Below are positions 21,434 to 25,576 of a DNA stretch of 64,000 nt, in pieces. The stretch comes from Nitrosophilus alvini. GTDB lineage: Bacteria; Campylobacterota; Campylobacteria; Campylobacterales; Nitratiruptoraceae. The number at the start of each line of letters is the position of its first letter. Position 1 is the first letter of the stretch. A model generated the notes under the pieces. The model made no database searches. It was not told the DNA's origin and was given only the letters and a program-made list of their open reading frames with translations. Location: contig NZ_AP022847.1 in the NCBI RefSeq assembly GCF_015100395.1, forward strand, positions 932,501 through 996,500. Direction: 5' to 3'. The position numbers were made by a program, and so were the translations under genes.

Positions 21434-24019
21434 TCATACTCTCTGTCCGTTTACAAGAACAAATACCTCTTCGTTTTCAGCATCGAAAACTACACTGTCG
21501 CCTTCTTTTACTTTATCTTCAAGTATAAGTTCTGCAAGTCTGTCCTCTACAAGCTCGTATAGTGCGCGCTTAAGAGGTCTTGCACCGTATACTGGGTCGA
21601 ATCCGGCTTTTGCGACGATTTTTTTGGCAAGATCAGTCAATTCTACTTTTATATCTCTTTCTTTAAGTTTTTCCTGAATTCCTTTAAACATAATATCTAC
21701 AATTTTAACTATCGCTTTTTCGTCAAGCGGATTGAAAATCACTATGTCATCAAGTCTGTTCAGGAATTCGGGCTTGAAATATCTTTTGAGTTCGTCTTTA
21801 ACCGCTTTTTCCCTGTCTTCCGGATCTCTGAATTCCATAATTTTATCGCTGGCGATATTTGATGTCATGATAATTATTGTATTCCTGAAATCAACTGTAA
21901 CACCTTTGTTATCTGTCAATCTTCCATCGTCTAGAACCTGCAACAGGATATTGAAAACATCAGGATGCGCTTTTTCTATCTCATCAAACAAAATTACACT
22001 ATAAGGCTTTCTTCTAACAGCTTCTGTAAGTTGTCCGCCCTCTTCATATCCAACATATCCCGGAGGGGCACCCACAAGTCTGGATACTGCATGTTTTTCC
22101 ATATATTCGCTCATATCTATTCTGATAAGAGCTTTTTCGGTATCAAAAAGAAATTTCGCCAATGTTTTTGCGGTTTGGGTTTTACCTACTCCTGTAGGTC
22201 CAAGGAACATAAAACTTCCTATAGGTCTGTTTGGTTCGCTCAGACCTGCTTTATTTCTTTTTATAGCCCTTGCAACTGCTTTTATAGCTTCATCCTGTCC
22301 CACAACCTCACGTCTTAGTTCATCTTCAACATGAAGTATCTTCTCTTTTTCACTCTGAAGCATTTTTGTTACAGGAATACCTGTCCATTTGCTTACAATT
22401 GCCGCAATCATCTCTTCATCAACGCTGTTTTTGAGAAGAGTTCCGGCTTCTTGCATTCTTTCCCACTGTTCATTAAGATCTTTGAGCTTTTGTTCAAGCT
22501 GTGGAATCTGACCATATTCAATTTCGGCAGCTTTATTGAAATTGCCCTCTCTTTTTGCCAACTCGGCTTCTCTTTTTAAAGCATCGATTTTTTCTTTGAT
22601 TTCAGCTATATCTTTGAATACTTTCTTTTCATTCTCAAACTGGGCTTCAAGTTGTCTCTTTTTCTCTTCAAGATTAGCTATCTCTTTTTCTATCTCTTTT
22701 AGACGCTCTTCATTTTTTTTACTCTTTTCCATCAAAAGAGCCTCTTTTTCAACCAACAGCTGTTCAATCTCTCTTTTAACCTTGCTAAGTTCAAAAGGCT
22801 CACTCTCTATCTGCATTTTGAGTTCAGCCGCTGCTTCGTCTATAAGATCGATTGCCTTATCGGGCAGGTATCTGTCTGTTATATATCGTGCACTCAATTT
22901 TGCCGCTGCAACAAGTGCACTGTCCAAAATCTGCACATTATGATGGGCTTCTAGTCTTTCTTTAAGACCTCTTAAAATCTGCAGCGCCTCATTTATACTT
23001 GGCTCTTCAACTTTTACAGGCTGAAATCTTCTTTGAAGAGCGGCATCTTTTTCAAAATATTTTCTATACTCTTTAAGAGTAGTGGCACCTATTGTGTGCA
23101 ATTCGCCCCTTGCCAATGCGGGTTTGAGAATGTTTGCGGCATCCATACTCCCTTCGGTTGCCCCTGCTCCTACGATAGTGTGTATCTCATCGATAAAAAG
23201 TATAATATTTCCGCTGCTTTTAACCTCTTCTACAACTGCTTTGAGCCTATCCTCAAACTCTCCTCTATATTTTGCACCGGCTATCAGTGCACTCATATCA
23301 AGAGAAACAACTCTTTTATTCTGAAGGCTCAAAGGCACTTCTTTGTTTACGATTCTTTGTGCAAGACCTTCTACAATAGCTGTTTTACCAACTCCCGGTT
23401 CACCAAGAAGAATAGGATTGTTCTTTGTTTTCCTTATCAGAATCTGCATAACCCTGTGAATCTCCTCATCTCTTCCGATTACCGGGTCAAGCTCGCCTTC
23501 TATTGCTTTTTTTGTAAGATCTATACCGTATTTTTCCAAAGCTTCTAAAGTTTCGTCTGCGGTAGGTTTGTCTATCTTTTTTCCACCTCTTATAGCTTCC
23601 AGATTTTTTTTCAAATCCATCAAATCAACATATTTGCCCAAAATATTTTTAAACGGTTCCGTATCAAGGTTGGCGATTATCCAGGTATCTACCGCCAGAA
23701 ACTGATCTCCGCTTTTAACCATAAGCCCTTCGGCTTTTTGCAGACTTTCGGCAAGATTTCTGGAAAGTTTTATACTCTCTTTTGTTATTTGGGAAACTTT
23801 AGGAAGTTTATCAGCTTCGCTTTTTGCTTCAAGCTCGATTGCAGCTTTGTCTATGCCCATCTTATTCAAAGCCTGATTCAGAATGGAACTGCTATCGGTC
23901 AGCAATGCCCATATAACATGAACCACATCAACTTCCGGGTTTTTATTGTGCAGAGCAAGGCTGATTCCTGATTCGATTGTTTCAGTCATCTTATGCGTCA
24001 GCTTTTCAAAAATACTCAT
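21434..24019 (-). CDS. clpB: ATP-dependent disaggregase ClpB
   Basis: ClpB is a hexameric AAA+ chaperone that threads aggregated proteins, working with DnaK. It has the N-terminal Clp domain, AAA-1 with Walker [13 protein letters not shown] (about residue 200), a long coiled-coil middle domain (about 400-520, strongly charged, MD type), and AAA-2 with [12 protein letters not shown] (about 605). The length (861 aa) is normal. AAGGAGCTGTC precedes the ATG. It has its own consensus promoter with an overlapping HspR-like palindrome and a strong terminator, so it is a single-gene heat-shock unit. Confidence 0.97.
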
Positions 24020-24050
24020 GACAGCTCCTTAATTAATTTAGTTTAATGGT

Positions 24051-24080
24051 ATTATACAACTTTAGTCAATTGATGTCAAG
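24051..24080 (-). promoter_or_regulatory. clpB promoter with overlapping HspR (HAIR-like) operator
   Basis: On the minus strand, TTGACA (24079-24074), a 17-base spacer and TATAAT (24056-24051) form a perfect sigma-70 consensus promoter ending about 30 bases before the clpB ATG. On the plus strand, CTTTAGT-7-TGTCAAG (24060-24080) matches the HspR element CTTGAGT-7-ACTCAAG at 11 of 14 positions and covers the -35 box and spacer. HspR control of clpB is known in Campylobacter; its use here is inferred. Confidence 0.75.
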
Positions 24081-24163
24081 TTATTTTAGTCTATAAAACT
24101 CTTTGTTTTTCTGCATAAAACCCGCTTTGTAAAAAGTTTAGCCAATTTTTAGTATATTTTAAT

Positions 24164-24208: not shown

Positions 24209-25576
24209 ATGAAAAAAATGAAAATTTTAACTCTCAGTTTCATTGCTGCCTCCGTAATGGGATACGGTTTTATACAAACTGATCTTTTTGCTAAAAGCGA
24301 AGAATCAAATCTTACTACAAGGTTGCATTCGATTGCCAAATTTACTAAAGTCGTAGGTACCGTTGAAAAATATTACGTAGATGAACTTACTATTGAAGAG
24401 ATCATAAATAAAGCAATAGCTGGACTTTTAAGTAATCTTGACGCCCACTCCTCCTATCTTGACAAAAAACACTTCAAAGAGCTAAAAATTCAAACGGAAG
24501 GAGAGTTCGGAGGCCTTGGTATCACTGTCGGAATAAGAGACGGTGCACTTACCGTAATAGCTCCGATAGAAGGCACTCCTGCAGATAAAGCGGGACTGAA
24601 ATCAGGAGACATTATCCTAAAAATAAATGACAAATCAACTCTGGACATGACGCTCGACGAAGCGGTAAATCTCATGAGAGGAAAACCGGGAACAAAAATA
24701 AAACTGACTATTGTAAGAAAAAATGAACCAAAACCAATTATTGTTGAAATTACAAGAGATATTATAAAAATACAGTCTGTATATGCAAAACATATTCTTA
24801 ATGAGGATATTCTTTACTTAAGAGTTACATCTTTTGACAAGAAAGTAAAAAGTGATGTAGAAAAATTTATAAAAGAGAACGAAGATAAAACTAAAGGGAT
24901 AATATTAGATCTAAGAAACAATCCGGGCGGACTTCTAGATCAGGCAGTAGAGTTGGTAGATCTTTTTGTAGATGAAGGGGTTATTGTCTCACAAAAGGGA
25001 CGTGTAAAAGATGAAAACAGAGAGTATCTCGCAACAAAACCCGGAACATACAAAAATATCCCTATCGTTGTATTGGTGAACGAAGGAAGTGCAAGTGCAA
25101 GTGAAATTGTAAGCGGCTCACTCCAGGATCATAAAAGAGCGATCATAGTCGGAGAAAAGACTTTTGGTAAAGGAAGCGTACAGGTAATACTTCCTATCGA
25201 TAAAGAAGAAGCCGTAAAACTGACTATAGCAAGATACTATCTGCCAAGCGGAAGAACTATCCAGGCATTGGGCGTAACACCTGACATCATTGTACATCCG
25301 GGAAAAATTCCAATAGAAGAAAACGGATTTGCAATCAAAGAAGCAGAACTTAAAAAACATCTCAAAAGTGAACTAGAAAAGATAGAAGAAGAAAAGGGTA
25401 CATCCGAAAAACTGCAAAATGAAGAAGAGAAAAACAAAAAAGATGAAAAAGAGAAGAGTGAGAAAGAAAAAGATCTTATTGATGAAAAAGCTCTTTATGA
25501 AGACGCTCAACTCAAATCTGCCGTAGATATATTAAAAGCATTGATAATAGTCAAAAACGTATCTAAAAACAATTAA
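24209..25576 (+). CDS. ctpA: C-terminal processing protease, S41 family
   Basis: This is an exported serine protease that trims protein C-termini in the periplasm. A signal peptide or anchor spans about residues 1-28. A PDZ domain (about 95-170, with GGLGITVG and GDIILKIN) precedes the S41 catalytic domain. Its nucleophile lies in GSASASEI (residues 293-300) and the general-base Lys in GEKTFGKGSVQ (Lys321). The C-terminal 80 residues are very rich in Lys and Glu and probably disordered. ACAAGG lies upstream of the ATG. It leads a plus-strand operon with purC nine bases downstream; the same order is recalled in Campylobacter jejuni. Confidence 0.93.
   Translation: MKKMKILTLSFIAASVMGYGFIQTDLFAKSEESNLTTRLHSIAKFTKVVGTVEKYYVDELTIEEIINKAIAGLLSNLDAHSSYLDKKHFKELKIQTEGEFGGLGITVGIRDGALTVIAPIEGTPADKAGLKSGDIILKINDKSTLDMTLDEAVNLMRGKPGTKIKLTIVRKNEPKPIIVEITRDIIKIQSVYAKHILNEDILYLRVTSFDKKVKSDVEKFIKENEDKTKGIILDLRNNPGGLLDQAVELVDLFVDEGVIVSQKGRVKDENREYLATKPGTYKNIPIVVLVNEGSASASEIVSGSLQDHKRAIIVGEKTFGKGSVQVILPIDKEEAVKLTIARYYLPSGRTIQALGVTPDIIVHPGKIPIEENGFAIKEAELKKHLKSELEKIEEEKGTSEKLQNEEEKNKKDEKEKSEKEKDLIDEKALYEDAQLKSAVDILKALIIVKNVSKNN

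Follow-up and report, generated by a model that had tools for sequence, protein, structure and literature searches.

Promoter and probable operator upstream of clpB

The question raised by this locus is whether clpB simply has a very strong promoter or whether it has a strong promoter that a repressor holds shut until heat shock. The gene lies on the minus strand at 21434..24019 of the window, by which we mean the whole stretch of 64,000 nucleotides that was analysed. It is an open reading frame for an ATP-dependent disaggregase of 861 aa with the Pfam domains AAA_2, ClpB_D2-small and Clp_N. The product scores 1218.7 bits against TIGR03346 ClpB, just under the cut-off of 1232.1. Its promoter, TTGACA-17-TATAAT at 24079-24051 (-), stands 31 nt upstream of clpB and agrees with the sigma-70 consensus at 12/12 positions, exactly where a first-pass annotation of this DNA had put it. 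The -35 hexamer TTGACA is at 24074..24079 (-) and the -10 hexamer TATAAT is at 24051..24056 (-), with a spacer of 17. A ribosome-binding site, AAGGAG, can be picked out by eye at 24025..24030 (-). The minus-strand sequence 5' of clpB is ACTAAAataaCTTGACAtcaattgACTAAAGttgTATAATaccattaaACTAAAt. When up to 2 mismatches are allowed at a spacer of 17 the window has 16 promoter-like sites against 13.0 expected, and the clpB site is the sole perfect one. The intergenic region is common to clpB and a divergent S41/PDZ carboxyl-terminal protease gene at 24209-25576 (+).

A HAIR-like inverted repeat, CTTGACA-N7-ACTAAAG, lies over this promoter at 24080-24060 (-). Read on the plus strand the same palindrome is CTTTAGT-CAATTGA-TGTCAAG (24060-24080). 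The predicted left HspR half-site, CTTGACA at 24074..24080 (-), contains the -35 hexamer as its positions 2-7, and the predicted right half-site, ACTAAAG, is at 24060..24066 (-). The annotation had claimed an 11/14 match to the HspR element, lying over the -35 and the spacer, and the sequence bears out this match when it is set against CTTGAGT-N7-ACTCAAG, the Streptomyces HspR/HAIR as quoted in PMC6102357 (this and the other papers are cited here from extracts of their text). By itself the score is at chance level, with 3.42 such matches expected in the shuffled window, so the weight of the operator has to come from its position and its conservation.

Pattern searches of the genome lead to the same place. 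A loose HAIR search with 3 mismatches was uninformative: it gave 1504 matches, and the reversed control gave 1356. Because the pattern is palindromic, each site is counted twice. The tighter TTGAYW-N7-ACTMAA has 10 matches against 7 in the reversed control, which is barely above it, so again we rely on context and conservation. Four of the ten are the cbpA, clpB, hrcA and hsp20 promoters, five are in coding regions and one is just 5' of another gene.

hspR and the other chaperone operons

The annotation had tied its proposal to an hspR gene and to similar elements at other chaperone genes, and both were found. The genome encodes a 125-aa MerR protein with a score of 126.5 bits to NF047375, the HspR equivalog of NCBIfam (cut-off 105). 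This hspR sits behind a DnaJ/CbpA-type gene, cbpA, about 6.9 kb to the left of the window, and HspR is the single match when the genome is searched with MerR_1 at E <= 0.001. Elements of the same kind stand at cbpA-hspR (ATTGATT-GATTTTG-ACTAAAC), at hrcA-grpE-dnaK (CTTGACA-ATAATAA-ACTCAAT), at groES (ATTTAGT-CATAAAG-ACTAAAG, plus a CIRCE-like element) and at hsp20 (ATTGACA-AATATCG-ACTAAAG). On this evidence hsp20 is likely an additional target of HspR. Among the matches listed in literature searches, no title reports control of hsp20 by HspR for Campylobacterota, which is not proof of absence. The hsp20 gene here is L211:1026-1460, and the HspR-type promoter pattern occurs in 21/21 hsp20 upstream regions from 20 genomes.

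Conservation in relatives

The family set consists of 22 genomes in 3 genera. These genomes are related, so the counts below are not independent. The family pattern was NTTGNNN-N7-[AG]CT[AC]ANN-N2..5-TANNNT, which asks for a pair of half-sites with N7 between them, followed by a -10. It matches the upstream regions of clpB in 17/21 cases, of hrcA in 20/20 and of hsp20 in 21/21; the strict form (CTTGACA plus TATAAT) is found in 13, 18 and 19 of them respectively. Shuffled copies of the same upstream regions match in 14/3100 trials. Among the 17 matching clpB promoters (21 examined) the -35 is TTGACA at the same place in 15, the exact left half CTTGACA is kept in 13, and all 17 have TATAAT with a spacer of 17.

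Four clpB upstream regions have no pattern match (L029, L030, L037 and L038). By eye L037 is an 18th clpB with the element, its right half being GCTTAAA. No recognisable HspR box was seen at the clpB of L029 (genome G008), L030 (G007) or L038 (G010), and hspR is present in all three. The gene may have left the HspR regulon in G007, G008 and G010. One more genome, G004, had no close clpB match, its single match being at paralogue level (E 3.4e-36).

A like pattern with a -10 matches 86/94 cbpA upstream regions (shuffles 16/4700), with 8/94 unmatched. The 94 comprise 21 from the family and 73 named records, mostly Campylobacterota with a few from other phyla. The family contributes 21/22 since L146 has too little upstream sequence, and 7/80 named hspR loci were left out for want of a usable cbpA upstream region. 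We took L058 and L135 to be the same genome, as their cbpA promoters are identical, and L058 was left out of the word-rank, spelling, RCTNA and shuffle counts. At groES, where the partial L197 was left out, the half-site pattern matches 15/21 upstream regions and misses 6/21; one of the groES regions, L195, matches by eye with ACTTAAA. In another phylum, three Aquificales/Aquificaceae records (L126, L129 and L133) have the clpB-like spelling [AC]TTGACA-N7-ACT[AC]AA[AT] 5' of a DnaJ-like gene near hspR.

Consensus promoters elsewhere in the genome

A consensus -35 had been called unusual for this phylum. TTGACA-16/18-TATAAT occurs at 16 sites in the genome, the clpB site being the only one within the window, against 1 site for the reversed pattern and 1.7 predicted by a dinucleotide model of the window. 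The claim has to be modified, since the consensus -35 is not peculiar to clpB. Four of the 16 sites belong to rRNA operons, seven are at tRNA genes, and clpB, hrcA and hsp20 have one each. The remaining 2 are at a sulfhydrylase-like gene (named by eye) and inside a coding region. Because the consensus -35 is found at stable RNA genes and heat-shock genes alike, it is no oddity of clpB. We suggest that consensus -35 boxes are used here where high output is needed, at stable RNA genes and derepressed chaperones. In the same phylum, by contrast, the promoters of C. jejuni are said to have no -35 box; Petersen in 2003, to go by the title, is said to have found a periodic signal in place of the -35 box in C. 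jejuni RpoD promoters. Several of the tRNA/rRNA perfect promoters (L198, L201, L202, L204, L207, L208, L203, L210, L212 and L213) have start regions that are alike, reading TATAATTTCA or like TATAATTCC, and in L212 and L213 two perfect promoters stand in tandem ahead of an rRNA operon.

Operator or coincidence

One could argue that the palindrome is a coincidence. In that case clpB would just have a constitutive strong sigma-70 promoter, and the likeness to HAIR would be due to the TTGACA in its left half. About half of the match is indeed the -35 itself, 11/14 matches are expected 3.4 times per window, and the box is missing from three family clpB promoters. However, the right half [AG]CT[AC]A is kept at exactly N7 in clpB, hrcA, hsp20 and cbpA, which shuffles rarely reproduce (the 14/3100 above), and we know of no sigma factor that needs it. 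Among the genome's 16 perfect promoters the right half-site is found at the operator position only in clpB, hrcA and hsp20, and hspR is present. Conservation of the right half largely refutes coincidence, and we consider it very improbable.

It is also worth considering whether the box is bound by a repressor other than HspR, such as HrcA. A diverged HrcA-like protein is present and there are CIRCE-like elements at groES. The CIRCE of HrcA is TTAGCACTC-N9-GAGTGCTAA, which differs in sequence from the box; by eye no such element was seen in the clpB upstream region, and what is CIRCE-like is a separate element at groES and a half-site at hrcA. No second MerR_1 protein was found in the genome, and footprints in C. 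jejuni assign this type of motif to HspR (PMC7464140). That another repressor reads the box is scarcely credible to us.

We argue that the clpB promoter of this Campylobacterota bacterium very probably belongs to the HspR heat-shock circuit, in which HspR would bind, repress and give way on heating. The presence of hspR, the elements at chaperone genes and their conservation all support a strong promoter that can be repressed, as the annotation had proposed from the sequence. In this scenario RNA polymerase with the vegetative sigma factor would recognise the consensus TTGACA-17-TATAAT. By occupying CTTGACA-N7-ACTAAAG, and with it the -35 and the greater part of the spacer, HspR would block the polymerase, and with flanking dimers it would also cover the start site. 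Under stress HspR would be inactivated, which would release a promoter of the rRNA/tRNA-promoter sequence class.

Spelling of the left half-site

Operator and -35 are tied together, since the left HAIR half-site is the -35. A left half shaped by the operator only would be expected to read AGT at positions 5-7, mirroring the ACT of the right half. It does so at groES, where the box begins 112-141 nt ahead of the start codon and is off the core promoter: 15 of the 21 upstream regions match, with AGT in 13/15 and AGC in 2/15. Where the left half serves as the -35 these positions read ACA: 15/17 in clpB, 20/20 in hrcA and 21/21 in hsp20. In the cbpA promoters of the family they read ATT in 21/21, and the -35 begins 4 nt further on (TTGATTGACA). 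In this +4 register, 42 of the 86 matching cbpA regions have the hexamer TTGACA and 26 have TTGACT; a spacer of 17-18 is found in 82/86.

Set beside groES, the spelling TTGACA seems to serve RNA polymerase and not the symmetry of the repeat. Most simply, TTGACA would be a genuine sigma-70 element which the operator tolerates. The spelling of the left half-site would then follow the register of the promoter, which suggests two superimposed codes, operator and -35. The comparison also offers a natural experiment that, within a single 21-bp element, sets the needs of the repressor against those of RNA polymerase.

Candidate half-sites 24 nt away

Two further ACTAAA sites flank the clpB operator. 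The downstream candidate is at 24037..24042 (-), 24 nt after the start of the right half-site, and the upstream candidate is at 24085..24090 (-), 24 nt before it. Both are putative HspR contacts. At the +24 position RCTNA occurs in 11/17 family clpB promoters, and any other offset from +7 to +45 has <=1. When the clpB, hsp20 and cbpA promoters, 123 in all, are pooled and lined up by their right half-sites, 32 have RCTNA at +24 and 6 have it at +23, and every other offset between +7 and +45 has 1 or none. One cbpA record, L121, is a false anchor that is counted in the totals of 86, 64 and 123 and among the 32 at +24; it was dropped from the analysis of distance between half-site and -10. Taken separately, RCTNA is at +24 in 4/21 hsp20, 17/64 named cbpA (the false anchor included), 0/21 family cbpA and 0/20 hrcA promoters. 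Many of the named cbpA matches are Sulfurimonas-like records that are not independent.

The upstream position has its own distribution. RCTNA is at -24 in 9/20 hrcA and 6/17 clpB promoters, and no other offset between -60 and -17 has more than 2 in either set. It is at -24 in 2/64 named cbpA, 0/21 hsp20 and 0/21 family cbpA promoters. For hsp20 the upstream maximum of RCTNA is at offset -47, in 4 promoters. The absence from family cbpA at +24 (0/21) and the presence in hrcA at -24 (9/20) pull the idea of 24-nt half-sites in opposite directions. In this genome there is a strict +24 site at clpB and ACTAAA stands at -24 in both hrcA and clpB by eye; the strict +24 site is absent at cbpA and hrcA, and by eye there is none at hsp20.

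We also ranked ACTAAA at +24 among 2490 combinations (30 permuted words at 83 offsets). It ranks 2 in clpB, 11 in hsp20, 12 in family cbpA, 28 in named cbpA and 92 in hrcA, so there are other words above it. As an offset for ACTAAA, +24 is the top one in every set except hrcA, where it ranks 4/83. A peak of similarity to ACTAAA at -20 was discounted as the A-rich AATAAA stretch beside the left half-site, and a peak at +43 in hrcA is a CIRCE-like GTGCTAA.

The +24 site could instead be a feature of transcription initiation, such as start-site context, and not a contact of HspR. It does lie near the expected start, and its poor showing elsewhere (none in hrcA, 4/21 in hsp20, 0/21 in family cbpA) would fit. 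However, it keeps its distance to the right half-site, 24 nt (23 in a minority), and not to the -10, from which its gap varies from 8 nt in clpB to 7-8 in hsp20 and 2-3 in cbpA. There is also the matching peak at -24 in clpB and hrcA, far from the start, and only 1/13 perfect promoters outside the heat-shock genes have RCTNA 0-10 nt after the -10. We take the initiation feature seriously as a possibility and think it somewhat improbable.

As candidates, then, RCTNA half-sites 24 nt downstream and upstream would help flanking HspR dimers to bind. This leads to a broader proposal to which we give an even chance. HspR operators of the Campylobacterota would be arrays of RCTNA phased at 24 bp over the promoter. 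The register would set the spelling of the left half (ACA, ATT or AGT), and the +24 and -24 sites would seat flanking dimers. In the family, clpB, hrcA and hsp20 would thus have promoters of the rRNA class, kept off by a repressor that reads the -35 itself. The point left open in the HspR literature, which sequence the flanking dimers read, would be narrowed to specific sites that can be mutated.

Comparison with known systems

The core of the switch is already known from the HspR-bound clpB promoter of C. jejuni, and the additions made here are the register rule, the 24-nt half-sites and hsp20. As at C. jejuni PclpB, a HAIR-like operator lies over the core promoter of clpB; binding there was footprinted and here it is predicted (PMC7464140). 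The C. jejuni footprint on Pclp runs from -63 to +18, and its HAIR-like sites differ in affinity (PMC7464140). The likeness extends to cbpA, groESL and hrcA-grpE-dnaK being in one circuit, and to a groES operator that is upstream with CIRCE at the start site (PMC7464140). The HspR sites on Pgro and Phrc of C. jejuni are upstream, however, and at hrcA the operator there is upstream of the core promoter, at -111 to -16 (PMC7464140). Here the left half-site is the -35 in 20/20 family hrcA promoters. The legend of Figure 2 in the C. jejuni paper marks only the -10 (PMC7464140), whereas the -35 is consensus here.

The HspR operators of H. pylori are 70-80 bp long with one central HAIR and are explained by a model of three dimers (PMC6102357). 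The promoter studied here is like Pcbp in having one central HAIR-like repeat over it (PMC6102357). At 70-80 bp, an extended operator would have room for three units of about 24 bp. For H. pylori the extract reports no further HAIR-like sequence and calls the flanking determinants "still unknown"; unlike Pcbp, the promoters here have +24 and -24 half-sites as candidates for that role (PMC6102357). How H. pylori HspR senses stress is described as unresolved in the extract of PMC6032397. Streptomyces HspR/HAIR shares the spacing of the repeat and the repressor family, but the match here is 11/14, the phylum is another, and elements are also present at hrcA, groES and hsp20. In Deinococcus radiodurans hsp20 is reported as an HspR target (cited in PMC2687793), so that regulon resembles the one predicted here. 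We saw no description of the register rule, or of half-sites 24 nt away, in the extracts of PMC7464140, PMC6102357, PMC6032397, PMC3847290, PMC2687793 and PMC10696704, which came from general searches.

HrcA and CIRCE

The lack of a match to Pfam PF01628 had suggested that this genome has no HrcA. That was overturned by a 265-aa HrcA-like ORF at the grpE locus (L023:2028-2825, G000:C1), whose best NCBIfam match is NF003033 at 238.7 bits, below the cut-off of 248. The protein is strongly diverged inside the family, with 29-58% identity in 19 other genomes. Upstream of groES (L176-L196) this genome and five relatives have GAGTGCTAA as the right arm of CIRCE, and in many other relatives the arm is like TTGGCACT-...-GAGTGAYAA. 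Perhaps this variation in the right arm parallels the divergence of HrcA.
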